Assembly (NCBI GenBank): GCA_945862535.1
Contig: CAMAYG010000003.1
Location: forward strand, 57,413 to 121,412
Source of the DNA: Rickettsia typhi
GTDB lineage: Bacteria; Pseudomonadota; Alphaproteobacteria; Rickettsiales; UBA1997
Direction: 5' to 3'
DNA: 64,000 bases
Shown: piece by piece, positions 6,930 through 32,361 of the stretch
Position numbering within the stretch: position 1 is the first letter of the stretch
Layout: every line of letters begins with the position of its first letter
The notes under the pieces: model-generated
What the model was told of the DNA's origin: nothing
Database searches by the model: none
What the model saw: the letters and a program-made list of their open reading frames with translations, nothing else
Translations under genes and position numbers: made by a program

Positions 6930-8243
6930 ATGACTCAAATAAAAAGCCCCACCTCCTCTAGTGCTAATTCTATTGAAATTGCAAAAATTAGAGTGGCAAA
7001 TTGTCAAAAATCTTCATTAACTGTTGCTGTAGATAAAATGCAAGATGTTGAAACTGTCTCTTTAGGGGTTTTTGTTAATACTGGTAGCCGTAATGAAACC
7101 GCAAAAAATAACGGCATTTCGCACTTTTTAGAGCATATGGCTTTTAAGGGCACAAAAAAAAGAACCGCTTTAGCAATTGCCGAAGAAATTGAAGCAATTG
7201 GTGGCTATATCAATGCTTACACCTCTCGCGAAAAAACCGTTTATTATGTTAAAATCCTTAAAAAACACCTTGAATTTGCTGTAGAATTTTTGTCGGACAT
7301 TATTCAAAATTCAACTTTCGATAAAATAGAGCTAGAAAAAGAAAGAGGAGTGATTTTACAAGAAATTGCAATGACAAACGACTCTCCCGATGACATTGTT
7401 TTTGATTATTTTCAAAATGCGGCTTTTGAAAAACAGCCAATTGGTCGCTCGATTCTAGGGCCAGAAAGCAATATCAAAAAATTCCAACAACAAGATTTTT
7501 TTGACTATGTCAATTCTCAATATAATGTTGATAACATCGCCATTAGTGCGGCCGGAGCAACAAATATTGCAGAATTATCTACTCTTGTTGCTAAATATTT
7601 TACCAATCTTAATTTGGGTAAGGCAAAAAAATCTGTCGATGCTAAATATTGCGGGGGCGAATTTCGTAAGCAAAAAAAACTTGAGCAGAATAATATCTTA
7701 GTGGGCTTTAAGGCTTTTGGCTATAAGGATGCTCGCTATTATCAATTGCAAATGTTGGCAATGATTCTAGGATCTGGAATGTCATCGCGACTTTTTCAAG
7801 AAATACGAGAAAAAAGGGGTTTGGCTTATTCTATTTATGCCTTTAATCAATGCTATAGAGACTGTGGAGTATTTACCGTTTATGCAGGAACTTCGCCAGA
7901 AAAAACCAATGAATTGCTTGAGGCAACAATAATGGAAATCAAAAAAATTACCAATAATATTACTGAAGCGGAAGTGAATAAGGTAAAAACTCAATTTGAA
8001 TCCTCTATTTTAATGGCAAAAGAAAGCACTAGTGGTAGGATGCAAAAATTAGGCAATAACTTACTTGATTTTGGCAGATATATCGACAGCAATCATATTC
8101 TTAGCGAGGTTAATAAAATTACAGTAGAGCAATTGCAAGAGCTTGCTTGTGAAATATTTTTTAGCAACAAGCCAAGTTTTGCAATGGTTGGCAATAAAAA
8201 TAGCGCTATGTCTTTTGACGAAATAACAACAAAACTTAACTAG
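6930..8243 (+). CDS. M16 family zinc metalloprotease (processing-peptidase-like)
   Basis: This is a 437-residue member of the pitrilysin/mitochondrial processing peptidase family, which cleaves peptides or presequences with a zinc ion. The inverted zinc motif HFLEH is present near residue 64, and the distal glutamate lies in ERGVILQEIAM. The C-terminal half has the REKRGLAYSIYAF segment typical of MPP-beta-like bacterial homologues. There is no obvious signal peptide, so a cytoplasmic or periplasm-independent role is possible; the substrate cannot be told from sequence. It follows tatB by 80 bp. Confidence 0.92.
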   Translation: MTQIKSPTSSSANSIEIAKIRVANCQKSSLTVAVDKMQDVETVSLGVFVNTGSRNETAKNNGISHFLEHMAFKGTKKRTALAIAEEIEAIGGYINAYTSREKTVYYVKILKKHLEFAVEFLSDIIQNSTFDKIELEKERGVILQEIAMTNDSPDDIVFDYFQNAAFEKQPIGRSILGPESNIKKFQQQDFFDYVNSQYNVDNIAISAAGATNIAELSTLVAKYFTNLNLGKAKKSVDAKYCGGEFRKQKKLEQNNILVGFKAFGYKDARYYQLQMLAMILGSGMSSRLFQEIREKRGLAYSIYAFNQCYRDCGVFTVYAGTSPEKTNELLEATIMEIKKITNNITEAEVNKVKTQFESSILMAKESTSGRMQKLGNNLLDFGRYIDSNHILSEVNKITVEQLQELACEIFFSNKPSFAMVGNKNSAMSFDEITTKLN

Positions 8244-8289
8244 GCTATTGCCAGAATAACGAGCTAGAGGTAAGTTTTGCTTTATGCCG

Positions 8290-8310
8290 AGGTTTTTTGG
8301 CTAAAAACCT
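8290..8310 (+). terminator. weak hairpin after the M16 gene
   Basis: AGGTTTTT (8290-8297) and AAAAACCT (8303-8310) form a perfect 8-bp stem with a 5-nt loop, 46 bp after the M16 protease stop. No clear T-tract follows, so it is at best a weak terminator. It lies in the 325-bp gene-free stretch 8244-8568. Confidence 0.3.
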
Positions 8311-8385
8311 TTGAAAATAAAAATCTTTGAAAAGCCTTGGTCACATTGTTATAAATTTTTTAATTTAATCGATGGAGTTTGCAAG

Positions 8386-8404
8386 AAAAACAAGTCTTGT
8401 TTTT
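8386..8404. promoter_or_regulatory. 19-bp perfect palindrome upstream of guaB
   Basis: AAAAACAAG and CTTGTTTTT flank a single central T, giving an exact palindrome about 165 bp before guaB. It could be an operator or a bidirectional terminator (A-tract on one side, T-tract on the other). A possible promoter follows (TTGCAA, 17 bp, TAAGAT near 8420-8450). The function is not known. Confidence 0.3.
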
Positions 8405-8553
8405 ATGTAATTTACTTTGCAATAAATTTATCTTGCATTTAAGATATTATTAACTTAGTTTTTAGAATATTTATAACTAATTTTAGTAATCAAAATTCTT
8501 AAGCAAAATTCTTTAATTTCAATATATTGAAGAGGTGAGTTAAGAATTATTAA

Positions 8554-10161
<1,608 letters not shown>

Positions 10162-10175
10162 AATTGCAAAGTTTA

Positions 10176-11063
10176 ATGATTAAATTTATCGCTACAAAAG
10201 TTTTATCTGCTAGTCAATTTTTGTCGCACAAAGTTATTGGACCGATAATTTACCTAATGCAAAAAACCTTTTTTGAACTAGCTTCATATGTCTTGGTAAT
10301 TACTTTCGCCATCATAAAAGTTACAAAAAGTATTCAAGGTGCAATTGCTTTTCATTTAATATTGTTGTTAATTTTTCTTTTGATTTTTCTTAATTCTTGT
10401 GCAAAAACTCAATTAGAAAAAGCCACCACTCCCGCTCAAGAATACCATAAGGGACTAGCTTTGTTAGCAAAGAAAAACTACGAAGAAGCGGCGGAAGTAT
10501 TTGAAAAAATAGAAGATAATTTCCCGTTTTCAGCAATTGCAATTAAATCGCACTTGGTTGCTGTTTATTGTTATTATCAAATACAAGAATATGTAAAAGC
10601 AATTGCTATTGCCGAATCTTTTATTCCAACCCACCCAAATAGCGACTTTACCCCTTATATGCTTTACATGAAGGGCTTGTCTTATTATCAGCAAATCACC
10701 AATATTAAGAGAGCTCAAGATATGGCATTGCAAGCAAATTTGTCGTTTTACGAATTAAACAACCGTTTTCCTTATTCAATATATCGATCCGATGCCGAAG
10801 AAAAAATTATAATTACCAACGAATATCTCGCCGGATCAAAGCTCGAAATCGCCAGATATCAAATGAGCAGTAAAAACCTTGTCGGAGCAATTACAAACCT
10901 TCAATATGTTGTCAAATATTTTGGTAATTCTGCCCAAGTGCCAGAGGCATATTTTCGAATACTAGAAATATATCGTTATCTCGACATGAAAAAGGAAGCT
11001 CGAACCCTAGAAGATATTATCAAAAAAGATTTTGCTAATAGTCAGTGGGCAAAAATGTTGTAA
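10176..11063 (+). CDS. bamD: outer membrane assembly lipoprotein BamD
   Basis: BamD is the essential lipoprotein partner of BamA in beta-barrel insertion. A strongly hydrophobic stretch ends in the lipobox LNSC, after which tetratricopeptide repeats follow (YHKGLALLAKKNYEEAA, KSHLVAVYCYYQ and others). The reading frame extends upstream with about 70 residues before the lipobox, unusually long for a lipoprotein signal. ATG 10176, ATG 10257 and several non-ATG starts are possible; the first ATG is listed because it has the A-rich context of this genome. The gene begins 14 bp after guaB, an unusual pairing. Confidence 0.85.
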   Translation: MIKFIATKVLSASQFLSHKVIGPIIYLMQKTFFELASYVLVITFAIIKVTKSIQGAIAFHLILLLIFLLIFLNSCAKTQLEKATTPAQEYHKGLALLAKKNYEEAAEVFEKIEDNFPFSAIAIKSHLVAVYCYYQIQEYVKAIAIAESFIPTHPNSDFTPYMLYMKGLSYYQQITNIKRAQDMALQANLSFYELNNRFPYSIYRSDAEEKIIITNEYLAGSKLEIARYQMSSKNLVGAITNLQYVVKYFGNSAQVPEAYFRILEIYRYLDMKKEARTLEDIIKKDFANSQWAKML

Positions 11064-11088
11064 TGCTGTAATAGTTAATAAATAACAT

Positions 11089-12852
11089 ATGAAAAAGAAA
11101 ATATTTAAAATCGCTGTATTAATATTAATTTGGAAGGTAATTTTTGTTGCGGGATTGCTATTTTATTATAGCTATGATATGCCAGATTTCAGCAGTCTTG
11201 ATCTTAAAACCAATAAGCCAAAAGTGCAGTTTTTCGACAGAAACCATCAGAAAATATTTGTTTTTGGCGAAGAATATCGTCAATTTGCTAATTACCATCA
11301 GTTGCCAGTAAATTTAATTAATGCTGTTGTGGCAACGGAAGATCGTCGATTTTTTAAGCATTTCGGCTTTGATGCAATCGGGATAATGCGGGCTATTTTT
11401 GTTAATAGCGAAGCGGGAAGAATTGTTCAGGGAGGTAGCACCATAACTCAACAATTGGCAAAAATTTCCTTTCTTAAGCCAGAAAGAACAATAAAAAGGA
11501 AGGTTCAAGAGTTGCTACTTGCGATTGAGATAGAAAAAAAGCTTACCAAGGAAGAAATAATCACTAATTACCTAAATCGTGCCTATTTTGGTTCGGGAAA
11601 TTATGGTGTTGTCAATGCTGCTCGTTTTTATTTTAATAAAAATGTTAGCAATCTTAATTTAAACGAATCGGCAATGCTCGCCGGAATTCTTAAGGCTCCT
11701 TCAAAACTATCGCCAAAAGTTAATCCAGAACTTGCCAATCAAAGAAAAAATGTTGTCATTCAGAATCTAATAAACGAAAAATATCTCGACAAAGATAAGC
11801 AAAAAAATCTTACTAAAAATATTAAATACAACAATTCTAACGAACAAAGCCTCTATTTTGTTGATGCGGTTCGCGAAGAATTGCAACAAAAATTCATCCC
11901 AATAATTGGCAATCGTAATGTTGCGGTAGAAACAACCCTAGATCTATCTCTGCAAAAGAAATTTATTAAAATCACTACCGATTTTGTCAATCAGCATCCG
12001 CAACATTTTTCAACAGATAGTTCGCCAGATTTAACCACTCAAATAGCCGTTGTAGCAATTAATCGTCAGGGTGAAGTTGTGTCAATGATTGGCGGTATAG
12101 ATTATCAACAAAGCCAGTTTAATCGAGCAATAAAAGCTAAAAGACAAGTTGGCTCTCTTTTTAAAACAATTCTATATTTAGCTGCTTTTGAACAAGGTCT
12201 TAACAACGACGAAATATTTGACGATCGTAAAACCAATATTGGTGGCTGGTCTCCAGATAATCATAATCACCAATATCAAGGAGAAATAACCCTTGACAAA
12301 GCATTTGCTCAGTCAATTAATTCTGTGGCGGTGCAACTAGCAATGATTGTTGGTAATCAAAAAATCATCGAAACAGCAAAAAATCTTGGATTAAATTACG
12401 ATTTTCCAAATGATGATGCGACAATTGCTTTGGGAACTGGCTCTTTTAGTCTGTTCGATTTTACAAAGCTATATGCAACAATTGCTAACGACGGTAAATT
12501 GCTAGAGCCTTATTTGATAAAGAAAATCAATAACGATGATGGTATTTTGCTTTTTGAAAACTTATCACAAGAAAAGAGTTCTGCGATTAATATCGATTCA
12601 ATCGAAAAAATTAGACAATCTCTTAGCTTGGTTATTAGTGATGGCACGGCAAAAAATGCTAAAATAAAATCAGATGCATTTGGTAAAACTGGCACCAGTC
12701 AGAGCTACCGCGATGCTTGGTTTATTGGCTTCGATAATAATCTAACGATAGGAATTTGGATGGGTAACGACAACAATAAGCCAACCAAAGGTATCAGCGG
12801 CGGAACCCTTCCTGCTAAATTATTTGCCAATTTAATTGCTGTTTCTGCATAA
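11089..12852 (+). CDS. class A penicillin-binding protein, PBP1A-like
   Basis: This bifunctional enzyme polymerises and crosslinks peptidoglycan outside the inner membrane. An N-terminal anchor helix precedes the GT51 transglycosylase domain, with EDRRFFKHFG, QGGSTITQQLAK and NRAYFGSGNYGV. The transpeptidase domain shows the serine motif SLFK, the SIN motif and KTGTS. At 587 residues it is shorter than E. coli PBP1A (about 850) and seems to lack the extra OB-like domain. With FtsW and the M23 peptidase elsewhere in the window it shows that the cell wall is made. Confidence 0.93.
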   Translation: MKKKIFKIAVLILIWKVIFVAGLLFYYSYDMPDFSSLDLKTNKPKVQFFDRNHQKIFVFGEEYRQFANYHQLPVNLINAVVATEDRRFFKHFGFDAIGIMRAIFVNSEAGRIVQGGSTITQQLAKISFLKPERTIKRKVQELLLAIEIEKKLTKEEIITNYLNRAYFGSGNYGVVNAARFYFNKNVSNLNLNESAMLAGILKAPSKLSPKVNPELANQRKNVVIQNLINEKYLDKDKQKNLTKNIKYNNSNEQSLYFVDAVREELQQKFIPIIGNRNVAVETTLDLSLQKKFIKITTDFVNQHPQHFSTDSSPDLTTQIAVVAINRQGEVVSMIGGIDYQQSQFNRAIKAKRQVGSLFKTILYLAAFEQGLNNDEIFDDRKTNIGGWSPDNHNHQYQGEITLDKAFAQSINSVAVQLAMIVGNQKIIETAKNLGLNYDFPNDDATIALGTGSFSLFDFTKLYATIANDGKLLEPYLIKKINNDDGILLFENLSQEKSSAINIDSIEKIRQSLSLVISDGTAKNAKIKSDAFGKTGTSQSYRDAWFIGFDNNLTIGIWMGNDNNKPTKGISGGTLPAKLFANLIAVSA

Positions 12853-17575: not shown

Positions 17576-18835
17576 ATGGCAAAAGAAGTATTGCAAAATG
17601 TTAGAGGAACCAAAGATCTCTTTGGCTATGACTTATTAATATTTAATAAAATTATCGATATCGCAAGGCTTTTATCTACCCAATTCGCTTACCAAGAATT
17701 GCAAACTCCAATTTTTGAATTTAGCGAAGTTTTTGAGCGAAATCTTGGCGAATCTTCCGATGTTATTAGTAAAGAAGTTTATAAATTTTTAGATCGTGGC
17801 GATAATTTTTTAACATTAAGGCCAGAATTTACCGCTTCCGTTGTTCGTGCTTTAATCTCAAATCACGAGCTTCAACAAAGAATTCCAGCAAAGTTCTTCT
17901 CTTGGGGCCCTTTATTTCGTTATGATCGTCCGCAAAGAGGCAGGCAAAGACAATTCAATCAAATCAACTTTGAAAATTTTGGCGATGATTCTATTTATTC
18001 CGATGTTGAAGGGTTAATGCTTGCTAAACAGATATTAGATTCGCTCAAAATAAAGAATTCCGAGGTTAAGTTATTTATCAATTCTCTTGGCTCTAAAGAG
18101 GCAAAAGATAAATTCTCTATTGCATTGCAAGATTTTTTTCAGCAATATTATCACGATTTATCTTCCGACTCTCAGAGAAGAATCGCCACTAATCCAATAA
18201 GAATACTCGATTCTAAAAATGCAAAAGACATAGAAATATCGAAGGAAGCACCAAAAATTAACAGCTTTTTTGATACAGAATCCACTAAAAGGTTTCACGA
18301 TCTTCAGAATCTTCTAACAAAAACAGGAATAGATTTTACTGTTGCAGAAAATTTAGTTCGTGGCCTTGATTATTACACCTCTACAGTATTTGAATTTGTC
18401 AGCAATTACCAATCTGCACAAAATACCATTATTGCTGGAGGTAGATATAACAATCTTGTAGAGCAGATGGGATTTAAATCTTTGCCTGCTTTTGGTTTTG
18501 CTGCTGGTTTGGAAAGGTTAGCTTTGGAAACAGGGCAAGATGTTTTTTTTCAAAATAAAAATATAATTTTTATTGCCTATATTACTGAAGACCAGCAGGA
18601 TTTTGCCTTTAATTTAGTTTCAAAATTAAGAAAAGAATCTTTTTGTGTCGATTTTGTTGCTAATCTAAGCTTTAAAAAGCAATTAAAAATTGCCAATAAT
18701 ACAGAGGCGAATTGGTTAATTTTGGTCGGAGAAGATGAGTTGCTTGAAAATAAAATAACAGTAAAAAATTTAACAACAGGAAGTCAGGTTAAGTTGGATA
18801 TCGATAGCTTGTTATTTTTTTTAAAAAATAATTGA
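17576..18835 (+). CDS. hisS: histidyl-tRNA synthetase
   Basis: HisS charges tRNA-His. Class II motifs are visible: motif 2 region RYDRPQRGRQRQFNQ, the histidine-binding GLDYYTSTVFEF, and motif 3 with GFAAGLERL. RPEFTASVVRA is the HisA-like segment. The C-terminal anticodon-binding domain begins near residue 320. At 419 residues it is complete. It starts 32 bp after aroC with a context of AAAGCAAAATG. Confidence 0.97.
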   Translation: MAKEVLQNVRGTKDLFGYDLLIFNKIIDIARLLSTQFAYQELQTPIFEFSEVFERNLGESSDVISKEVYKFLDRGDNFLTLRPEFTASVVRALISNHELQQRIPAKFFSWGPLFRYDRPQRGRQRQFNQINFENFGDDSIYSDVEGLMLAKQILDSLKIKNSEVKLFINSLGSKEAKDKFSIALQDFFQQYYHDLSSDSQRRIATNPIRILDSKNAKDIEISKEAPKINSFFDTESTKRFHDLQNLLTKTGIDFTVAENLVRGLDYYTSTVFEFVSNYQSAQNTIIAGGRYNNLVEQMGFKSLPAFGFAAGLERLALETGQDVFFQNKNIIFIAYITEDQQDFAFNLVSKLRKESFCVDFVANLSFKKQLKIANNTEANWLILVGEDELLENKITVKNLTTGSQVKLDIDSLLFFLKNN

Positions 18836-18937: not shown

Positions 18938-21900
18938 ATGATATTATATACTGCTAAAATCATTAAAAAACTGCTAAACGATGCTCCGCTTAAGTCTAGG
19001 GGCGTTGAAATCAAAATTATTACTTTTTTTATTATAAAGTTTATTTTGCTTTTATCGTTTTTAAAAATTGCAACACTAGATAATGGTTTTGTTATTGATG
19101 CCTCGGCCCAGACTAGCACTCTGCCGTCTTGTCTAGATACAACAACTCCTAATTTTAGTAAAGAAAACTATAATTGTCAGCTGTTTTTACACGGCTTAAT
19201 GGACAATGGCCTTATTTACCCCGCTAGCTCTAAAACTCTCAGTGCAACTAATCAAAGAATACTACTCGATCTAAAAAAGAATGACTATCACGATAAGTCA
19301 ATAAGTACAGTTGTTAGTAGCTTCGCCAACAATAAAGACTCTGGACTAACCCTAATGTCTTGCATAGCTTTTAAAAAACAAAATCCATCTTTAAATGCTA
19401 AGCCCAGAATTAACTGTTTAGATCTTGCTGATATGCCTTTGTGCAATGATGTTGAAAAATTAGATCTTAAAAACTGTGTTAAAGAATGTGTTAGCAAAGA
19501 CAGTGCAGGTGTTTATTATAAGATAGATGATTATATTAAAAATCACAATCAAAGCTGTGTCGCATTTCTCGATACCGCAGTTTCGATACTAAAAGAAGCT
19601 TGTGAAAAGATTAATACCAATAGTCCCATTGATGATTGCGCTGAATATAGGAGGATTATTGAGAAAACTAACAAATTTACCACAAGAAAATGTCATCAGT
19701 TGGCAGAAGGTGTTACAATTCAAGAAGGTGTTAATTGTGAAAAGCTTCAATGTAACTTATTAACTCCTGGAGAAATTATATCTTATCAAAAAAAAGAATG
19801 TCTACTTTCAGACAGTAGCAGTTCACCTCCTAGTTCCATTGCTAAAGGATGTGATTTTTCAAAAGCTTGTAATACCAAAGATGCGCAAAGACTAAATAAT
19901 AAATTATTATGCGATGTTATTACAGATAAAAAGTCGGTAGAATATGATTCTTGTTTATCTCAGCAATCTAAATTAAAATGTTATCAGTTTTCTAGTGCTC
20001 AATTATATGCCTCTGCCTTTGGCTATTATTTAAATGTTTGTGAATTGCATAGTTGTGATTCTAATCTTACTAGTGTTACACAAACTAACTTGTGGCTAGA
20101 TAGTGAAAATGTTATAGAAAAGGATGATATCAACAGAAACTATGTAAAAAACTATTACAAAAATATCGCAGGCTCTAAAGTAAGTAGTATTGAAGACTTA
20201 GGAAGTAAAACCACTTTGAGAGGAATTATTGCAAAATTAAAATTTCCCAATGTTATAGATCCTGATCCTCAGATTGTTGCATGCGAGCCAAACTCAAAAA
20301 TTTTTAGTATTGGTTATAGTTGTACTAGCTCTTCAAAGCCACCAGAATGCGGAGGTGAAGCATGTAATAACAATATATGTTATGCCACAACGGACTGTTC
20401 AAAGCCTATTAATATTAACAATATTTTGTGTTCTGGTAATGAAAGCAAGGTTTTTCAGAAAGATTATTTCGACGATCGTTATAATGGAGAGCCTTATCTT
20501 CACTCGAATTTTCATCGCCCAGCTCCAAAAAACGAGGCATATTGTAATAAAGTCACCTCTACTGATTTAAACCTATCATGTAGCAATTTAGAAGATTGTA
20601 AAAACAAATCTGGTGGTGCATTTGCTTTTCGCTTTAAATCTAGTAGCAATGATTGTTCTGTTCCTATTTCTAATATTTTTCAATTCGAATGCTTAGATAC
20701 TACGAAAGATATAGTTTCAGATGGTGTAAATAGAACAGCTTCAACAAATCCTAGCATAGCAGAGGCTGGACATTGTAGTAATTTAAGTCCTAGGGATTAC
20801 TTAGGTAGAGATAAAGATAGTTACGGTAAATGTTGCAAAGCAGGAACTACTGTTCAACATAAGAAGATTGACATATATCACGACGGCTACATTCCTGGTG
20901 AGGATGTATTTTGGAATACATCGGAACTTTATTCTCCTAAAGTTAAAAATAAGAAATGCGATTGGGGCTTTAATGAGTATGCTATGAGCGTTCCTTCTCC
21001 TATTGGCGGTTTATGTGGACATGAGAGTCTTTTAGGTGCTGAGCCCTCTGATGATGTTGCTTATTTTGAGGGTTATCCCCAGCTACTTTATGACGACGGG
21101 AAAGTTAAATACAAAGTCAAAATTTGTGTTAGAAGATCTCACTCAACAAGACCAAGCACCTGCGGTAGCAGATACTGCAAAACTTGGTGCACTGTTACAA
21201 AAGGCTGGCCAGCACAGGTGTGCGAACAATATTGTGGTTTTGAAGAATGCAAAGATTTGGTAGTTGATGCTAGCAACCCAACAGAATGCAATCCTGCTGA
21301 CGAAGAAAAAATGAATACACTGATGAATACATATGATGTTAACGAAAAATGTGCTGCTAATATTAGGCTTCATAAAGGGGCTAGCGGCTATAGAGTTCGT
21401 GCTCTAAAATTTCGCAACAAGATATGCGGTGTTCTTGACTACACTGGAGTTGCGGGTTACGATGCCAATTTTTTAAGTAGCCAACATAAAGTTGAGTTAA
21501 CAGCTAAAGAAAAGAGGTTGTTTTGTAATTACAACGAAGGAGGCTCCAATAGCGATTTGGCATCAAATTGTGTTAAAAAGAGCTCTGTATGTATTAGCGG
21601 AGTTTTAGATTCTAGTGGCGATAAATGTGTCGGAGGATATGACTCGTTGCAATATTCAGGGCTTCTTAAGCCATGGAGACAGAAGGCTGTTATACCTTTT
21701 TCTTTATCAAATGGTGCAACTAAAACTGAAAACGGCATTACCGTAAAGGGCTTTTATGATTATGTGGGTAGGTTTCACGAAGAGATGCCATGTGCTCCAG
21801 TGCCAAGATTAATATCGCCGCCAAAAATGTATAATCTGGCAAATATTGATAATTCTTATCGAATATTCGACATACCACTCTTTGCCACGGTTCTAAACGG

Positions 21901-24900
21901 AACCGAAGCTTCGTTTCATAACCCAAAGATAAAAGTAACATATGGATTTAGTGAGTTTGTTTTGCAACTTTCTCCTTATTTACAGCAAGGAGTTTCTTTG
22001 CCAATTGAAGATCCAAAGACAGATAAAGACGGAACTGACTCTTCTCCGAACCCTCTTAATAATGTTTTAGACAGCTTCGCAGAGATGGATAATGCAAATA
22101 AAAATTGTAACGACTACAAAAATGCATTTGTAAAGAAATACAATGCTTTAAACTCTGCTAGTAAAGTTGCAAAATCATGCAACTCAACTGATTTTGATAA
22201 ATATATTAAATTTAATTTAGGACTTTATGTTAATCCCGACGAAACATTGGATGCTAATAAAATATATTACAACAATTATTACGACACCTTTTCGGTTAAC
22301 GATCCTCAAAAACCTGAACTATTAAGGATTGCTCAGGTTTCATCTTATCCCGATATTAAAGATACCAATGCAATAAGTAAAACACTTTTTAATATAAATG
22401 ATACCGATAAGATTGTACCAACTTTTGCCAATAATGGCTCTAATACTCAGCCAACGGAAATATTACTAAAAACAATCACGGTTGGCGGTGTTGCGATTGG
22501 TGGCAATAACCCAAGAACGGCAACACTATTCTTAAGAAAAGAATATAATAGTAGGCCAGAAATATGTTTAATGCGTCGCTTCTTAAATAAAGATAATAAT
22601 CATCAAGACATTAAGGTTAGGTGTTTTCCTAGAAAAATTACCGATGTCAAATTTATTACATATGAAAAAACTTCTGGTGTTGCTGGTGTTAATGTCGATG
22701 ATAACAAATACGGTCAAGGTGAATATAAAATTGAAGATGGTAAGGTTGTAGAAATTACCCCAACTATATATGGCCATAAAAAGATTTTTTTCCGCTTCTT
22801 TGACATCAATACTAAAAGTTACTCTAGCGAATATTATCTCGACAATGTTAATTATGGCACTAGTAATTGCGGTCTTATTAAAACTAATTCTGATGGAACA
22901 ACAGACACAGATCTTCTAGCTTCTTTAGCTAGTGAAAAATACCAAGTTTGCAGCGAGAGAAGTGAATGTTCTAGGTTTTTTAATGAATGTACCGCAAATA
23001 CAATACAAAATCACCGTAAGAGTCAATTGGGTACGGTTATTTTTTACGATTATATAGCGGCATCTTGCCAATCTTTGCAAGAGAGCTGTTTGTCAAAATA
23101 TGGTTTATCGAAATATGAAAATATCTTTGAGATTGTTTACAATAAATATCGTACCGCTGTTCCCATTAAGTTAAAATCAAATATTAACTACGGTTTCTTT
23201 AACGAAATATGTTTGAGTGGCAAATCGATAGAGCACTTATTAAAAGAAGATGTCGTTGCTTATAAAGTCGATTCGGGGCTAGGAAAGTGTATAACACAAG
23301 AAAGCACGGATAAATGTAAGGCATATGGAGGCAATGGCAAGGATTGCAATTGTTTAAAAACTCTCATCTCTTCCAATGATTCTAATTACAATGCTTATGG
23401 CGGAAAAGAGGTAGTTAATAGAAAAATTACTCCTCGCGAAGCTGGTCTTTGTGTTGATATTCCGTTGCCTCCTTATTGTCCTGCGGTTAATTATCTTGAT
23501 TTTAATCTAGATAAAACAGATCTACTATTCTCCTTCCCTTCTGGCTATGATTTTAACGTTAACGGTAATAACCAAAGAGATGAATCTAATTCTTCTCTTG
23601 GACCAGTCTTAATGCCCGATTCTAATAAATTAAATGTATCCAGATTAATAAAATACGGTGTTAGTGAATTAATAGATATTGAGCATTACAACCGCAACTT
23701 CGATAAAGATTTGGCAACTAAAGATAAATATCAACTTTATAATCATGCTAATTTTCCAAACGCCTTTCCAGCGATGGTTGCGGTTAAAGGATCTTGCCAA
23801 GGTTATTGGAAGAAGGAATTGGTAAAAGGTAAATCAATTTCCCCCGTTGCAGATTGTGTGTTTCAAGAAAAGTCAGAGCTTGGCAAGTGGGAAAATGTAA
23901 CTGGTAAGTGCATAAGAAAAACTTGTCAGGCTGTTGATATTGCCGCTAATTCTGGTGTGCTATATAGTCAGAAGAATTATTATATTGTTAATAAGGAATC
24001 TTACAATGGGTTGTTTCAATTAGATTACGGATCTTCTTACAGTATTGCAAATAGCGAGTTAGGAGCTGATAACGACGAAAGTAAAGGAAGCTCCAATGGT
24101 TTTGCAACTTGGAGAAAGGTCGATGTTATGGACTTTGACTTTAATGTCGAGGCAACTGCATGTATTCCGGGTTACAGAGAAGTCGATTCTATGTCTTACT
24201 ATGAAATACATGATCGTCCACTTAATTTCCCTGAGGTTGATTTAAAGTTTCTAAAAGAAATTACAAGTTATAGTAATGGTAAAAATCCTGTAAGAATATG
24301 CTCTCCTCATGCATTTGCTGAGGAGGGATTCTGGAAAAACGATCATTTGATTGGGGAGTTTTATGGAAGTGTTAAGATTAATCAGAATTTTGGCACTAGT
24401 GTTCCATCTAACTATGCTGTTTATCGCGGTAATTCAATACAAAATCAATGTCTTCGTATTTACTGTCCGCTACTTTCTTCGGATGATGATGATATGGCAG
24501 ATTTAAGATACCTAAGAGGTGCTGAATTTAAAGGCAAAGAAGGCTTATCTAATAAGGAGTTAAGTTACCCAGCTTCGAAAGCCACAGATCCTAGTTACTA
24601 TGAAAAATATTATGGTGTCTGTCGTGAGGATAAGCATTTTTACAAGAACGGCAATGCCGATCCTTACAGAACTTGCGACAACTTTGGTAATTGGGGCCCT
24701 GTCATTAACCCTTGTATTAATAAATGTGATGCTATTAGTGATGCCGATGCTGAAGAGGGAGGCAATGGCAATGCGGAATGGGTTGAAGGTAAAATTGAGC
24801 CAGGATTTGCTCAATTGGTAGAGGGTAGCTGTTTACCTGGCTTTGTTCCTTATCCATATTCCCCTCCTAGAATTTTTGCTAAATGTATTCATGACGCTAC

Positions 24901-27013
24901 CTATGTATATGATAAAAAACAACCTATGAATTTTAATTTTAACTGCTACAAACTTGATTCGCAAGGTGAGCTTGATGAATATGGTGATTTGATGTTAAGA
25001 GTTGAGCAAAGTTTAGCAAGCAGCACAATAGATAACAAAATAGATGTGAATATTTCCACTGAATTAGTCAAGAAAGCAGGTTATGAAATTAGTAAAAGCG
25101 ATCCAAAAAATAATATTCCTTCTGGTTTATTGTTTTCTAATGCCGAAAATCCTTTAGTTGAAAGCTATAACCCAACAAATGGTTATATAAAAACTGGTCT
25201 TTATTCTTCAAAACCAATAAGAGCTTGTGCTTCTATTGAAAGAAAAAAACCAGATGGTTCAGTCGATTATCTTACTAGGTGGATAGCTCCACTTTCATCT
25301 TGCATTAGCGGTTGCCCTGGGGGAATTTTAATGTCATATGACACATCAAATCCTAAAGTTGTTATAGATTCTAGAATTAATGCTGGAATAACCTCGCATT
25401 ATTCAAATTTATTAAAGAAGACAGTTTATCTAAAATGGCCTAGTGTAAAATTTGGCTCAAGAGTTGTTATGCATGGAAATGTTAGGTTTAACACTAGCGA
25501 GAATGGCAAGGTATTCTTAATTCCAACAGCTTATTCTCCCAAGACTAATCACGAAAACAATCTAGACTTTACAAAATATGAAAAAGACCTAAGGGGGAAA
25601 AGTGATGATAACACAGGCTCTTATGTTGTTTCTAGAAAGTGCAATGATGAGGGTAATGATAAGGGTGTGTGGAGCGATCCTGTTGTTGGTTGCGGAACAT
25701 TTGATTCTGATGATAAATATTTCACTATGTCAAATTATTCTAATCACAAAGTATCAGAAAGCACCATCCCTCCTTCACTTGTTAGTGATCACGAATTTAT
25801 ACAGGATGTTGACACTAAGCCAAATGGTGGCACAGATTATAACCCTCAAAATTACATTATTGGTCAAAAATATTACGAAGAAGACAAAATTAAAGTGGAG
25901 TTAAGAGGATTTTGTAATGCTAAGAATAATTACTACCCTAAGACACAATATATATATGGCACAGGTACGGATCTAAATCATATTATTAGTAGAACAGAAA
26001 ATCCTTTGCCACAATTTTACTGTAAAGCACAATTTACCACTGCTCCATCGACGGACTTTCCTACTAATAGTGTGATAGACGGTTCCTATTTTGATTTTGT
26101 TGATAGTAATAATAAATGCCAGATTTATTGCAGTTTTGAAAGTCAGTCAGGCCAGCTTCGTGCTAATATGACTGATGCCAAGGTTGTTATTAATTCAGAA
26201 CTCGATGTAATTAACAAGAATCGTCGCTTTGAAGCTGGTCAAAAGACCAATGTTTCGAATCAAGGATATAGTGATGGAGCTTATGAGACAGATACTGTTA
26301 GGCTGTTTAAATGTGATTCTCGTTATACTTCTGCAGAACTTTCTTCTCCTTCTGAGGAAATTAACGATCAACTAACTTTATTAACTGATAATGACTATAT
26401 ATTAACAAATAATAAAGATATTCTTTGTGGCAATAATAAACTTAAAACGCCGTCAACTCGTCAGATTGCCAGTTCTTCTAAAAAATTCAATGCCAAAATT
26501 CCTTATGCTGTTTGTGGTGCCGATGGTAATTTCGACTTTAACCAAGGGCAGAAATGCGATCAGCAATGCCTAGGTTGTAATTTTGCGAATCTAAATAATA
26601 GCAACTTTAAAATTCTTGATACGAGTGTCGTGTCCACTTCTTGTTCTTCTTGGCCAATAAATTTTGAAGGTGCGAAAATAATGGATAAACTGAAGGAGGC
26701 TGACGGAAGTCTTTTGTCTAGTGATGGTGTAAGGAAATGTTACTACGGAAGTACCCAGCAAAGCGGTTACTGTGGCGGTTATGGCTATGAAATGTTCGTA
26801 AGAGTAGCGTACGACTTATTTTGTTACGATGGGATAATTAATGCTACTGTAGTTAGCCGTCGTGATGGAACCTGTGCCAACAATAATAGTTATTATTATC
26901 ATGGTGCGTATGGCTCTTGGCCATGGACTAAAGACAAGTGTGATTCTTCTTATGGAGCCGATACTAACTGTTGGTATGGTGGTAATACTTTTGGTAAGAT
27001 GGAGGATAAATAA
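18938..27013 (+). CDS. giant cysteine-rich exported protein, function unknown
   Basis: A single uninterrupted 2691-codon frame. The N-terminus has a basic region, a hydrophobic helix at about residues 26-46 and a likely signal-peptidase site in DASAQ near residue 58, so it is probably exported by Sec. By hand count there are about 107 cysteines, spread through the whole length and often paired (CKTWC, CEQYC, CLRIYC, CINKC, CQIYC, CDQQC), which suggests many disulphides outside the cytoplasm. The C-terminal third repeats a loose module with a Gly-x-Trp followed by Cys (GKWENVTGKC, GNWGPVINPC, GVWSDPVVGC). This recalls sushi-like or rickettsial VirB6-associated Cys-rich segments, but no VirB6 membrane block is seen. 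It is flanked by ordinary metabolic genes. Size and composition suggest a surface or secreted factor; function is not known. Confidence 0.9.
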   Translation: MILYTAKIIKKLLNDAPLKSRGVEIKIITFFIIKFILLLSFLKIATLDNGFVIDASAQTSTLPSCLDTTTPNFSKENYNCQLFLHGLMDNGLIYPASSKTLSATNQRILLDLKKNDYHDKSISTVVSSFANNKDSGLTLMSCIAFKKQNPSLNAKPRINCLDLADMPLCNDVEKLDLKNCVKECVSKDSAGVYYKIDDYIKNHNQSCVAFLDTAVSILKEACEKINTNSPIDDCAEYRRIIEKTNKFTTRKCHQLAEGVTIQEGVNCEKLQCNLLTPGEIISYQKKECLLSDSSSSPPSSIAKGCDFSKACNTKDAQRLNNKLLCDVITDKKSVEYDSCLSQQSKLKCYQFSSAQLYASAFGYYLNVCELHSCDSNLTSVTQTNLWLDSENVIEKDDINRNYVKNYYKNIAGSKVSSIEDLGSKTTLRGIIAKLKFPNVIDPDPQIVACEPNSKIFSIGYSCTSSSKPPECGGEACNNNICYATTDCSKPININNILCSGNESKVFQKDYFDDRYNGEPYLHSNFHRPAPKNEAYCNKVTSTDLNLSCSNLEDCKNKSGGAFAFRFKSSSNDCSVPISNIFQFECLDTTKDIVSDGVNRTASTNPSIAEAGHCSNLSPRDYLGRDKDSYGKCCKAGTTVQHKKIDIYHDGYIPGEDVFWNTSELYSPKVKNKKCDWGFNEYAMSVPSPIGGLCGHESLLGAEPSDDVAYFEGYPQLLYDDGKVKYKVKICVRRSHSTRPSTCGSRYCKTWCTVTKGWPAQVCEQYCGFEECKDLVVDASNPTECNPADEEKMNTLMNTYDVNEKCAANIRLHKGASGYRVRALKFRNKICGVLDYTGVAGYDANFLSSQHKVELTAKEKRLFCNYNEGGSNSDLASNCVKKSSVCISGVLDSSGDKCVGGYDSLQYSGLLKPWRQKAVIPFSLSNGATKTENGITVKGFYDYVGRFHEEMPCAPVPRLISPPKMYNLANIDNSYRIFDIPLFATVLNGTEASFHNPKIKVTYGFSEFVLQLSPYLQQGVSLPIEDPKTDKDGTDSSPNPLNNVLDSFAEMDNANKNCNDYKNAFVKKYNALNSASKVAKSCNSTDFDKYIKFNLGLYVNPDETLDANKIYYNNYYDTFSVNDPQKPELLRIAQVSSYPDIKDTNAISKTLFNINDTDKIVPTFANNGSNTQPTEILLKTITVGGVAIGGNNPRTATLFLRKEYNSRPEICLMRRFLNKDNNHQDIKVRCFPRKITDVKFITYEKTSGVAGVNVDDNKYGQGEYKIEDGKVVEITPTIYGHKKIFFRFFDINTKSYSSEYYLDNVNYGTSNCGLIKTNSDGTTDTDLLASLASEKYQVCSERSECSRFFNECTANTIQNHRKSQLGTVIFYDYIAASCQSLQESCLSKYGLSKYENIFEIVYNKYRTAVPIKLKSNINYGFFNEICLSGKSIEHLLKEDVVAYKVDSGLGKCITQESTDKCKAYGGNGKDCNCLKTLISSNDSNYNAYGGKEVVNRKITPREAGLCVDIPLPPYCPAVNYLDFNLDKTDLLFSFPSGYDFNVNGNNQRDESNSSLGPVLMPDSNKLNVSRLIKYGVSELIDIEHYNRNFDKDLATKDKYQLYNHANFPNAFPAMVAVKGSCQGYWKKELVKGKSISPVADCVFQEKSELGKWENVTGKCIRKTCQAVDIAANSGVLYSQKNYYIVNKESYNGLFQLDYGSSYSIANSELGADNDESKGSSNGFATWRKVDVMDFDFNVEATACIPGYREVDSMSYYEIHDRPLNFPEVDLKFLKEITSYSNGKNPVRICSPHAFAEEGFWKNDHLIGEFYGSVKINQNFGTSVPSNYAVYRGNSIQNQCLRIYCPLLSSDDDDMADLRYLRGAEFKGKEGLSNKELSYPASKATDPSYYEKYYGVCREDKHFYKNGNADPYRTCDNFGNWGPVINPCINKCDAISDADAEEGGNGNAEWVEGKIEPGFAQLVEGSCLPGFVPYPYSPPRIFAKCIHDATYVYDKKQPMNFNFNCYKLDSQGELDEYGDLMLRVEQSLASSTIDNKIDVNISTELVKKAGYEISKSDPKNNIPSGLLFSNAENPLVESYNPTNGYIKTGLYSSKPIRACASIERKKPDGSVDYLTRWIAPLSSCISGCPGGILMSYDTSNPKVVIDSRINAGITSHYSNLLKKTVYLKWPSVKFGSRVVMHGNVRFNTSENGKVFLIPTAYSPKTNHENNLDFTKYEKDLRGKSDDNTGSYVVSRKCNDEGNDKGVWSDPVVGCGTFDSDDKYFTMSNYSNHKVSESTIPPSLVSDHEFIQDVDTKPNGGTDYNPQNYIIGQKYYEEDKIKVELRGFCNAKNNYYPKTQYIYGTGTDLNHIISRTENPLPQFYCKAQFTTAPSTDFPTNSVIDGSYFDFVDSNNKCQIYCSFESQSGQLRANMTDAKVVINSELDVINKNRRFEAGQKTNVSNQGYSDGAYETDTVRLFKCDSRYTSAELSSPSEEINDQLTLLTDNDYILTNNKDILCGNNKLKTPSTRQIASSSKKFNAKIPYAVCGADGNFDFNQGQKCDQQCLGCNFANLNNSNFKILDTSVVSTSCSSWPINFEGAKIMDKLKEADGSLLSSDGVRKCYYGSTQQSGYCGGYGYEMFVRVAYDLFCYDGIINATVVSRRDGTCANNNSYYYHGAYGSWPWTKDKCDSSYGADTNCWYGGNTFGKMEDK

Positions 27014-27100: not shown

Positions 27101-28213
27101 ATGCTAATAGCAATTCCTAGGGAAATTAAAAATCACGAATATCGTGTTGGTGCAACTCCGGCTGGGGTTGCTGAATTAGTTGGTGCTGGACATCGGGTTT
27201 TAGTAGAAACTAATGCTGGAACAAGCATTGGCTTCGACGATTCGCAATATTTGGAAGCTGGGGCAATTATTGCTAGCGATGCCAAAGAGATATTTGCGAA
27301 AGGCGAGATAATTCTTAAAGTCAAAGAATTGCAATCAAGTGAATGCGATCTGGTTAAAAAAGGGCAGGTAATCTTCTCCTATTTCCATTTGGCTGCAGAG
27401 CCCGAGCTTACTAAAAAGTTGATTGAAACTAAAGCAACGGCAATTGCTTTTGAAACAGTAACCGCAAATGATGGAACATTGCCACTTTTAGCACCAATGA
27501 GTGAAGTTGCAGGTAAGCTTTCGATTCAGGCAGGGGCAAGAGCCTTAGAAAAATCGCAACAGGGCAGAGGGGTTTTGCTTGGCGGTGTTCCAGGAGTAGA
27601 AAGAGCGACGGTGGTAATTTTGGGTGGCGGAGTTTCTGGCACCAATGCCGCAAAGGTTGCTATTGGCTTTGGAGCAAAAGTTATAATAATGGATAAATCA
27701 TTGCCAAGAATGCGATATTTAAGCGATATTTTTGCTAATCAATGCGAAGTTTTATATGCCTCGAAGCAGAATATCGAGAAATCTGTTTTGGTTGCAGATT
27801 TAGTAATTGGTGCGGTGCTTATCCCGGGGGCTTCGGCACCAAAATTAGTTTCTCTCGATTTAGTTCGTAAAATGAAAAAGGGAGCGGCAATGGTCGATAT
27901 TTCAATCGATCAGGGCGGTTGTTTTGAAACTAGTCGTCCAACCTCACATAGCGAACCAACTTATTTGGTCGACGGAGTAGTTCATTATTGTGTAACCAAT
28001 ATGCCGGGTGCGGTTGCGAGAACCTCGACTCAAGCCCTAGAAAATTCAACCCTACCTTTTACTTTGCAAATCGCTAATTTAGGGTTAGTGAAAGCATTAA
28101 AAAATAATCATCATCTAATGAACGGGCTAAATGTTTATGATGGCAAAATTACCCACAAGCAAGTTGCCGAGTCATTAAATTATCAATATCATCAGCCAGA
28201 TCTACTATTTTAG
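27101..28213 (+). CDS. ald: alanine dehydrogenase
   Basis: Ald reversibly converts L-alanine to pyruvate and ammonia with NAD. The N-terminus MLIAIPREIKNHEYRVGATP is highly typical. The Rossmann loop is ILGGGVSGTNAAKVAIG, and the substrate region YFHLAAEPELT is intact. The 370-residue length is normal. The gene lies 87 bp after the giant gene and 9 bp before proB, so ald and proB probably form one transcript that handles alanine and glutamate/proline carbon. Confidence 0.96.
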   Translation: MLIAIPREIKNHEYRVGATPAGVAELVGAGHRVLVETNAGTSIGFDDSQYLEAGAIIASDAKEIFAKGEIILKVKELQSSECDLVKKGQVIFSYFHLAAEPELTKKLIETKATAIAFETVTANDGTLPLLAPMSEVAGKLSIQAGARALEKSQQGRGVLLGGVPGVERATVVILGGGVSGTNAAKVAIGFGAKVIIMDKSLPRMRYLSDIFANQCEVLYASKQNIEKSVLVADLVIGAVLIPGASAPKLVSLDLVRKMKKGAAMVDISIDQGGCFETSRPTSHSEPTYLVDGVVHYCVTNMPGAVARTSTQALENSTLPFTLQIANLGLVKALKNNHHLMNGLNVYDGKITHKQVAESLNYQYHQPDLLF

Positions 28214-29911: not shown

Positions 29912-31492
29912 ATGACAAAAAGAAATTACAAAATTGACTCAACCGCAAACATAATCACCATGCAAAAAACTCAAAAGATTTATAATGAAATAAACAATCA
30001 GTATAAATTAATAGATGATGATACCAAGCAATCAGAGGGTGTAGTATACACACCTCAATACATTGCAAAGTATATAGTAGAAAATACTATAAATATTAAT
30101 GATACAGATATATACAATAAGAAAATTCTAGATCCATGTGTTGGAGGTGGAATTTTTATAATTGAGTTACTATCGTTTTTCTATAAAGAAAAAATTGATT
30201 TAAAAATAATTATACCAAATATTTATGGCTTTGATATAAATAATAACAGAGTCGTTGAGGCAAATCACAATATTAAAAATTATCTAAAATCTATTAATAT
30301 AGATGTTGATCAATTAAATATTGTAAAGCAGGATTTTCTTAAATTTAAGAATCAATCATTTGATTACATTATAGGCAACCCACCCTATGTAAACTCTCAC
30401 AAGTTACCAAATGATGTAAGGCAATCATTAAAAACTGATTTTGCTACTACAAAACTAGGAAATGGAAATATTTTTTATGCCTTTGTAGAAAAAAGTCTAA
30501 GTTTAATAAATTGCAATAAATCAAAAATAGGATTTATCATACCAAATAATTTACTATATATTAAGTCTGCCCAGAAACTAAGAGAGTTTTTATCAGAAGG
30601 AAGTTTTATAAACAAGATAGTTGATTTTAATTTAAACTTACCGTTTAAGCCAATTAGGACATACAATGCTATTGTTTTGTTAAGTAAAAATAATAAATCC
30701 GTTGAATTTGCTAGTTTAGATAAGAGTGATAATATAGAGGAAGCATTAAATAAATGTCAATTTGATACAATAAGTTATAAAAATCTTAGTAAAAGTGCTT
30801 GGCACTTACTAAGTCAGGATAAGGTGCAAAGGATAAGATCGTTGGAAAATCCATTTTTTAGATTGGGAGACTTTATAAAGACTGGCATAGCAACATTAAA
30901 AGACGAAGTTTATATCGTTGATAATCGTGATGGAGATTATCTAAATAAAAATGTTGATGGAGTGGAATATAAAATAGAAAAAAATATAACAAAAAATTTC
31001 TATAAAATTCCCGAAGTAAAGGATGTGAGTAACATGATTGCTTATAGAAAAAGAATTATTTACCCATATAAAAGAATAAATGGCACCATTAAACTAATGG
31101 ATGAAAAGGAATTAGGAGATAATTATCCACTTGCCTATAAATACCTTCTTTCACAAAAAAATAAGTTACTAAGTAGAGATAGTGGAAAAATACCCGTGAA
31201 CGAATGGTATAAATATGGAAGAAGTCAGGGGTTAAATATAAATAATAATTTTAAAATCTTCTTTAAGACATTTAACAATAAGCCAGAATTTTATTTATCA
31301 GACACTAATGATTGCTTATTTTCAAATGGTTATTGTGTAGAAATTTCTAATGGAGATCAAATTAAAGATTTTTTAAAAAAATTAAATTCAGAGTCATTGG
31401 ATTTTTACATAAAAAATACTAGCTATGCTATTGAGGGCGGATATTACTGTTATCAGAAAAAATATTTAGAGAATTTTAGTATTGAATTTTAA
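29912..31492 (+). CDS. type II DNA adenine-N6 methyltransferase (gamma class)
   Basis: A 526-residue methylase that would protect the host at its recognition site. EGVVYTPQYIAKYIV precedes motif I DPCVGGGIF (about residues 74-82), and the catalytic motif IV is IIGNPPYV (about residue 155). The C-terminal half has the TaqI-type specificity-domain segment TGIATLKDEVYIV. Codon and base use differ by eye from neighbours, with many ATA and AGA codons and lower GC. It overlaps no other gene and its partner starts 8 bp downstream. The recognition sequence cannot be inferred. Confidence 0.9.
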   Translation: MTKRNYKIDSTANIITMQKTQKIYNEINNQYKLIDDDTKQSEGVVYTPQYIAKYIVENTININDTDIYNKKILDPCVGGGIFIIELLSFFYKEKIDLKIIIPNIYGFDINNNRVVEANHNIKNYLKSINIDVDQLNIVKQDFLKFKNQSFDYIIGNPPYVNSHKLPNDVRQSLKTDFATTKLGNGNIFYAFVEKSLSLINCNKSKIGFIIPNNLLYIKSAQKLREFLSEGSFINKIVDFNLNLPFKPIRTYNAIVLLSKNNKSVEFASLDKSDNIEEALNKCQFDTISYKNLSKSAWHLLSQDKVQRIRSLENPFFRLGDFIKTGIATLKDEVYIVDNRDGDYLNKNVDGVEYKIEKNITKNFYKIPEVKDVSNMIAYRKRIIYPYKRINGTIKLMDEKELGDNYPLAYKYLLSQKNKLLSRDSGKIPVNEWYKYGRSQGLNINNNFKIFFKTFNNKPEFYLSDTNDCLFSNGYCVEISNGDQIKDFLKKLNSESLDFYIKNTSYAIEGGYYCYQKKYLENFSIEF

Positions 31493-31500
31493 TATAAAAA

Positions 31501-32361
31501 ATGTGCATTTTAGAAAAAAATATAATTAAGTTTAGAGAAGCTACTGAGCAATGTATAGTCAAAAGCGGCTATATCAATAAAGATGGGTTATTTAAAAAAA
31601 GCAACAATGGGCATGAAGCATTGGGTTCTTTTATAAGATCACAAATACCAATAGGATATATACACGAAGCAATTAAGGAGGTTTTTGTTAAAACATACAA
31701 GATAGATGAAAATAGAATATATCCACCACTTGGGAAAAGTAAGCCAGAGTTGAAAGTCGTAGGTAAATTAAAAGAAAAAGATCAAGATATCTGCATAGTA
31801 CCCAATAACATTGACAAAACATCGTCAAGCGTTAGTACATATATGGGAATTAAGCAGGATAAATTGGGTATTTCGTATTTAAAACATACCTTAATTTTAA
31901 ATGTAAGAAGTCAAATTGTTAGTATTGCAAAGAATACGGATACAATTTTAGAGCGTACTTTTGCAGAGCCAGTAAACTTGAATTTAAGGAACGATGAAAT
32001 AATTCTTGGAGAATTCTTTTTATTGCCCATCAGTGAGATTAATATTAGTTGTGCGAGAAATAATCAAAAAGGCTATAAGAATATTTCAAATTATATAATT
32101 GAAAAATATATAAACTTTTTTACAGCAATTAGAGATAAGGAAAATAAAACGCAAAATGAAAAAATAGTTTCTTATAGTGAGTGCTGCTTAATATTAGTTG
32201 ATTTAAGCAGAAATAATCCAAAAATATATAAAACTACCCAAGAACTTATAGATGACGGCTTTGTAAGCGATGGTTTTGATAAAGAGATAAATCAATTATA
32301 TTTCTATAATGTTATAAAAAATCTTTATGATAAATATCTAAATATTTATTCTGGTGATTGA
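31501..32361 (+). CDS. putative type II restriction endonuclease
   Basis: A 286-residue protein translated just after the methylase, the usual arrangement for a type II system. The segment VRSQIVSIAKNTDTILERTF and the following GEFFLLP recall a family of restriction endonucleases, as best I can recognise it. Charged residues in GKSKPELKVVGKLKEKDQDI could be part of a PD-(D/E)XK site, but I cannot assign catalytic residues with confidence. Base composition is the same low-GC type as the methylase, suggesting joint acquisition. Alternatives are a specificity or accessory subunit. Confidence 0.65.
   Translation: MCILEKNIIKFREATEQCIVKSGYINKDGLFKKSNNGHEALGSFIRSQIPIGYIHEAIKEVFVKTYKIDENRIYPPLGKSKPELKVVGKLKEKDQDICIVPNNIDKTSSSVSTYMGIKQDKLGISYLKHTLILNVRSQIVSIAKNTDTILERTFAEPVNLNLRNDEIILGEFFLLPISEINISCARNNQKGYKNISNYIIEKYINFFTAIRDKENKTQNEKIVSYSECCLILVDLSRNNPKIYKTTQELIDDGFVSDGFDKEINQLYFYNVIKNLYDKYLNIYSGD

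Follow-up and report, generated by a model that had tools for sequence, protein, structure and literature searches.

A giant cysteine-rich protein in a Rickettsiales genome with apparent sushi-type modules and a candidate role in attachment

The 64,000-nucleotide stretch analysed here (the window; contig CAMAYG010000003.1 of an assembly deposited as Rickettsia typhi), from an aquatic Rickettsiales bacterium, carries a single very long gene at 18938..27013 (+), and the question raised by this locus is what kind of protein that gene encodes. The gene ran from ATG to TAA over 2691 codons, and its product, the “giant”, had a calculated mass of 294 kDa and 107 cysteines, the first at residue 65 and the last at residue 2678, in agreement with the first-pass annotation, which had described an 8-kb gene for 2691 residues with about 107 cysteines. 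The longest open stretch in 20 random 64-kb windows of a Markov-1 model was 203 codons. The reading frame was confirmed to be real and no artefact because orthologues with open frames were found in other genomes. Residues ~1600-2126 of the giant appear to form four chained modules of the sushi or short consensus repeat (SCR) type, diverged and bearing insertions, with one or two more possible.

The repeating pattern, recognised by eye in the alignment, was C1 - GFA.W - C2 I.GF - P.R.C3 - D.LG.W - N.C4, followed by a short linker and the next C1. Three cysteines (1620, 1640, and 1658) were assigned to M0 (aa ~1600-1663; 23735..23926, +). Four were present in each of M1 (aa 1663-1843, with insertions; 23924..24466, +; Cys 1663, 1742, 1788, and 1838), M2 (aa 1843-1930; 24464..24727, +; Cys 1843, 1895, 1913, and 1926), and M3 (aa 1930-2126, with a large insertion; 24725..25315, +; Cys 1930, 1965, 2097, and 2122), the last being the weakest of the four modules, and the linkers between C4 and the next C1 were 4-5 residues long. 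The second half of a possible M4 (aa ~2221-2252; 25598..25693, +) read RKC...GVWSDPVVGC and was detected by hhalign at about 38-42% only, and a possible M5 (aa ~2521-2550; 26498..26587, +) reached about 59-66% to M2 in three overlapping windows. Each of M0 to M4 had a tryptophan between C3 and C4. The 15 module cysteines and the next C1 (2126) were identical in every aligned orthologue, except Cys 1640, which was identical in seven of eight. Comparison of the modules with one another by hhalign gave 94% for M1-M2 (23 columns), 94% for M1-M3 (87 columns), 83% for M0-M2, and 52% for M0-M1, and a sliding scan placed modules at aa ~1600-2130. In a predicted structure of poor quality, M0-M2 aligned best with the Eph-receptor cysteine-rich domain (CRD), CD55, CD46, and factor H.

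The main support came from a relative's genome (G022), in which the profile of this region matched C155:16605-16877 at E 1.5e-7. The match fell within a frame of 1144 aa, truncated at the contig end (L143:1471-4902, −) and with 70 cysteines, which was taken as bacterial because a gene with a SIS domain was present on the same contig. This protein matched Pfam Sushi at E 1.6e-22 (80.1 bits versus a cut-off of 20.7) in eight stretches, and phmmer, at E 3.5e-4 to 7.7e-3, linked it to the PDB sequences of factor H, beta-2-glycoprotein I, and CD55. Its cysteine spacings were 14-17 residues for C2-C3, 13-17 for C3-C4, and 4-5 for C4 to the next C1. A profile built from six of its modules scored 56% with M1, 22% with M2, 2.4% with M0, 0.9% with M3, and 34% with the whole of profile A4, as well as 77% with a module of pilin-like proteins described below, while the controls gave 2.1% or less. 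This result supports the assignment of M1 and of the pilin module, and lends little support to M0 and M3.

Other results were weaker or negative. The giant scored below the gathering threshold of PF00084, and no Pfam family matched it at E<=10. M2-M3 (12%) and M0-M3 (1.4%) were not directly detected by hhalign, and the sliding scan found no module in aa 61-1590. Among eight family members, weak Pfam names were Ephrin_CRD in two (best 9.5e-7), HRM in two, Sushi in two (best 0.0089), and Crystall in one; they were treated as leads, and none occurred in the window protein. Ephrin_CRD, HRM, and Sushi are all SCR-type folds. When module consensus sequences were searched against Pfam, HRM was returned for M2 (0.062) and for the pilin module (0.0058), an unrelated name for M3, and nothing for M0 or M1. 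Residues 1524-1562 of one relative (L041) showed a weak beta/gamma-crystallin match (E 0.003, below the cut-off). A strict half-module regular expression matched the window protein once, at aa 674-766, outside the modules (shuffle mean 0.01), and a second pattern matched twice, once in M2 (shuffle mean 0.03); both were judged of no use.

Searches with the whole protein gave no other identity. NCBIfam and PADLOC, like Pfam, returned no family at E<=10, PDB sequences none at E<=1, and PHROGs two matches (E 0.63 and 0.76) taken as noise, and the readings as a known enzyme, as a defence protein, and as a phage protein were rejected. Against PDB, profile A4 had no match at E<=10 and profile A5 two unrelated ones (E 0.62 and 1.4). 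Phage or plasmid cargo was also rejected, since tblastn of aa 1595-2275 found no match in the phage or plasmid collection, and none of 49 pattern matches in viral contigs was confirmed.

The regions of the giant were 16-38% identical to those of seven orthologues, the C-terminus being lowest, while mean conservation was 0.90 for cysteine (87 sites) and 0.82 for tryptophan (11 sites) versus 0.07-0.45 for other residues. Among the 89 cysteine columns with at least six aligned orthologues, 65 were invariant and 72 were kept in 80% or more of the orthologues. Because the cysteines were 90% conserved while the regions were so dissimilar, the protein bears the mark of a selected disulphide scaffold with a free surface. 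Over 21 pairs of seven loci, identity was 29-51% for the giants, 42-76% for MurD, and 67-84% for PurE, with the giant lowest in every pair (the giant of G006 was represented by its longer piece only).

How might such a protein leave the cytoplasm? Residues 1-58 (18938..19111, +) resembled a signal peptide with a long n-region, as the first-pass annotation had proposed. The hydrophobic segment at aa 27-45 was the sole one above the hydropathy threshold, with no second one in the scan, and it was followed by DASAQ-TS, near which the putative cleavage site was placed from hydropathy and by eye. The N-termini of the orthologues resembled this start. In four giants of 3718-4516 aa (L028, L029, L030, and L032), one more hydrophobic segment lay inside the protein, at about aa 1150-1420. 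Behind the putative signal peptide lay a cysteine-dense region (aa 59-690, 37 Cys; 19112..21007, +) and a central region conserved in orthologues (aa 691-1599, 33 Cys; 21008..23734, +), for which an AlphaFold2 model of aa 690-1600 failed, with a predicted local distance difference test score of 36.6. The modules were followed by a variable C-terminal tail (aa 2261-2691; 25718..27010, +) with 16-23% mean identity to orthologues, and the C-terminus was hydrophilic by eye, with no Pfam match to the C-terminal beta-barrel of an autotransporter or to a two-partner secretion (TPS) domain. The earlier view that the sequence permits no functional assignment holds for residues ~59-1600 but is too gloomy for the C-terminal part, where modules of a known kind can be named.

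On balance, we lean towards the giant being a Sec-exported (as judged by eye), disulphide-braced, multi-domain extracellular protein for attachment to cells or surfaces. Disulphides form in the periplasm, and those of the giant would form there during folding. The protein would then be displayed at or beyond the outer membrane, where the row of modules may be part of a binding arm or stalk that would take hold of proteins or glycans at the surface of protists, prey, or a matrix. The genome encodes a secretin, a T2SSF (PilC/GspF) protein, a strong match to T2SSE (PilB/GspE-type ATPase), and N_methyl pilin-like frames, two of them over the cut-off, so export by way of a type IV pilus or of type II secretion is possible. 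The surface or adhesion role suggested in the first pass gained indirect support from the signal-peptide-like N-terminus, the disulphide scaffold, and the SCR-like modules shared with pilin-like proteins.

An unlikely alternative is a periplasmic protein with a structural or sequestering role that stays within the cell envelope. The only export feature is the signal-peptide-like N-terminus, Pfam and hydropathy revealed no signal for export across the outer membrane, and the periplasm is where the disulphides would be made. Against this reading, the SCR modules and the link to pilin tips suggest an outward location; divergence was fast compared with the neighbouring genes, and 294 kDa is large for a soluble periplasmic protein.

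The giant proved to belong to a family. Among 50 genomes searched at the protein level, 14, including the window's own, had relatives, and all 14 belonged to the same bacterial family. With profile A2 (aa 1590-2275), 39 of 62 genomes of that family matched, including 26 of the 32 good ones, with frames of up to 5330 aa. Order-wide, 35 of 263 genomes matched, five of these outside the family and weakly (E 2.8e-7 to 9.9e-4), two of them (G131 and G149) in frames of 2676 and 3195 aa. In a class-wide sample, profile A4 matched one of 385 genomes, the window's own; the sample listed three other genomes of the order. The window protein alone, used as query in the first scan of genome contigs, found nothing. 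The window's genome had one copy, and in most matched genomes the giant was in one frame; in G006 it occupied two adjacent frames (L024:6225-7643 and 7686-12704, +), a split gene or an assembly error, beside a murD frame that holds ambiguous residues. Two giant frames of another Rickettsiales family matched the core profile weakly: L085:1249-9261 (+; 2671 aa, 72 Cys), which had no Pfam family at E<=1, and L088:6022-14001 (−; at least 2660 aa, 56 Cys). The available portions of PMC9352585 and PMC11077975 do not mention the family.

Of 13 regions, five had the giant flanked by murD and purE, and in two more it adjoined one of these genes at a contig end. Two further loci had the same murD-giant-purE order, one of them (L035) being the same contig as that of G065. 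MlaD, DUF2155, Rpe, MurD, and PurE of L035 were confirmed by Pfam; for six other loci, MurD and PurE were assigned by visual inspection and from their alignment with L035. Elsewhere the giant was found between hisS and ald (the window), beside a MotA/TolQ/ExbB-type gene (the genus mate G002), or beside other genes (G008, G013, G023, and G027). Contigs of metagenome-assembled genomes titled Rickettsia typhi and Rhizobium sp. Q54 (L036, L041, and L042) also carry the giant locus, and their species labels look wrong. In the window, hisS (17576..18835, +) lies upstream, and alanine dehydrogenase (27101..28213, +) follows 87 bp after the giant, with a proB-like amino-acid kinase with PUA next, so the housekeeping flanks described earlier were correct; a VirB4-type ATPase gene (47747-50308, +) lies ~20 kb away. 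A gene for an Eco57I-type methylase and a gene for a 286-aa protein without family (29912-32361, +) are perhaps a restriction-modification pair. The giant family is inherited and has no tie to vir or phage genes; as a single-gene family, it does not amount to the “novel system” for which the first pass had named it the best candidate.

The pilin-like proteins introduce a second alternative, that the giant is a tip adhesin of the PilY1 kind, borne by minor pilins with the same module and exposed at the tip of a type IV pilus. One pilin-like protein of the window's genome (L099:3499-4572, −; G000:C20; N_methyl below the cut-off) ended in one SCR-like module related to those of the giant. HMMs (hidden Markov models) of single giant modules gave weak scores against 10 pilin-like proteins (best E 3.9e-4, M2), and hhalign was therefore used. 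A profile from six such pilin modules scored 86% with M2, 59% with the whole of A4, 24% with M1, 2.6% with M0, and 0.8% with M3, while the bodies of the same six pilins gave 0.3% or less. In G012, the genome-wide A2 match (6.7e-4) overlapped the C-terminal end of the pilin match in a frame of the same length, and the matched frames of G091, G036, and G137, outside the family, were 943-1405 aa long with a pilin-like start by eye. Such pilins adjoined purE in four of the seven giant loci that reach well past it (L023, L027, L035, and L036, but not L024, L025, or L026), and pilin-like proteins with long cysteine-rich extensions occurred in relatives. None of the 62 genomes searched matched the PilY1 family PF05567, so that the role of PilY1 could be vacant; this absence is weak, since control genomes gave no match either. 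A PilY1 homologue was rejected, because neither the giant nor these genomes matched PF05567, the C-terminal domain of PilY1.

The lack of co-occurrence spoke against the tip adhesin. At E<=1e-5, 52 of the 62 genomes of the family had relatives of L099, many weak matches covering the pilin N-terminus only. In the 32 good genomes, at this same pilin threshold, both proteins were present in 22, the giant only in four, the pilin only in six, and neither in none; at E<=1e-15, a limit set after inspection of the table, the numbers were 20, six, six, and zero. None of nine genomes of genera g4 and g7 had a pilin match, yet six of them kept the giant, at up to 4529 aa, and in the window's genome the two lie on separate contigs. 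Since the two do not co-occur, the pilin is, on sequence grounds, kin to the giant in parts and no required partner, and a pilus-tip role of the PilY1 kind is improbable, about as doubtful as confinement to the periplasm.

Among related pilin-like proteins, those of other Rickettsiales families (L084, L086, and L087) showed weak Sushi, HRM, or Ephrin_CRD matches. L086 (G036) had fibrinogen_C above the cut-off, the G091 frame LamG below it, and a frame adjoining the pilin-like one in L084 (L084:210-3476) LamG above it. L140, L141, L142, and L144 were likewise pilin-like and had long extensions, giving lengths of about 1130-1620 aa, with two of the frames truncated at contig ends; L140 had 78 cysteines and L141 83.

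A contact-dependent or polymorphic toxin whose variable C-terminus serves as the warhead, the contact-killing factor of the first pass, is very unlikely. Conservation was indeed lowest in the last ~350 residues (16-20% mean identity), but Pfam and NCBIfam showed no toxin domain, and the Pfam search gave no RHS, TPS, or autotransporter match. The gene that follows after 87 bp is alanine dehydrogenase, and purE is the next frame of at least 120 aa in the murD-purE loci (the gap in L035 is ~0.4 kb). A VirB6/TrbL-type component of a type IV secretion system was rejected as barely credible: the five VirB6 proteins of the genome are also large (1007-2031 aa, 10-60 Cys) and phmmer of the giant against 12 proteins returned one of them (L083) at a non-significant E of 0.049, but no membrane-spanning channel domain (PF04610) was found in the giant, profiles A4 and A5 were at noise against the five (best E 0.35; 12 proteins, filters off), and the Sushi-module profile gave 2.1% or less with the three tested.

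A broader picture, to be taken as speculation, is that an aquatic Rickettsiales lineage may possess a whole attachment kit of sushi modules, comprising single modules on pilin tips, long cysteine-rich extensions on other pilins, and an exported giant of two to five thousand residues. The modules might bind, or perhaps imitate, eukaryotic host surface receptors, and the giant and the pilins may dock via like modules.

According to the available part of a comparative study of Rickettsiales (PMC10847448), related clades have type IV pili and adhesins of the exoprotein type, which are named as attachment candidates, and lineage-specific proteins as yet uncharacterised are expected. A conserved giant with SCR-like modules would be a concrete candidate for host attachment in deep-branching, aquatic Rickettsiales, and it raises the question of whether the sushi fold in these bacteria was borrowed from eukaryotes or is convergent. 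In the open-access PMC literature searched, no paper combined Rickettsiales with sushi repeats, and none of the titles listed reported such modules there. Compared with known systems, the giant resembles the VirB6/TrbL giants of Rickettsiales in size, cysteines, and an exported part, but lacks a channel domain. The tip adhesins among the minor pilins of type IV and Tad pili bear extra C-terminal domains at the tip, some with predicted disulphides, according to the accessible part of PMC12075869. Like PilY1 and these adhesins, the giant seems by eye to be exported, and its genome has pilus parts and a pilin-like protein with a related module, but it differs in having no PilY1 match, no pilin N-terminus, and no co-occurrence with the pilin. 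Sushi, SCR, or complement-control modules (PF00084) are best known from animal receptors and complement regulators. The giant differs from such proteins in being bacterial, in falling below Pfam Sushi detection, in consisting mostly of other sequence, and in the insertions of its modules (35-79 residues in C1-C2 and 18-132 in C2-C3); as in CD55, CD46, factor H, the Eph receptor CRD, and IL-15R alpha, however, the next C1 follows C4 after 4-5 residues and a tryptophan stands between C3 and C4, and M0-M2 of the poor model align with SCR structures.
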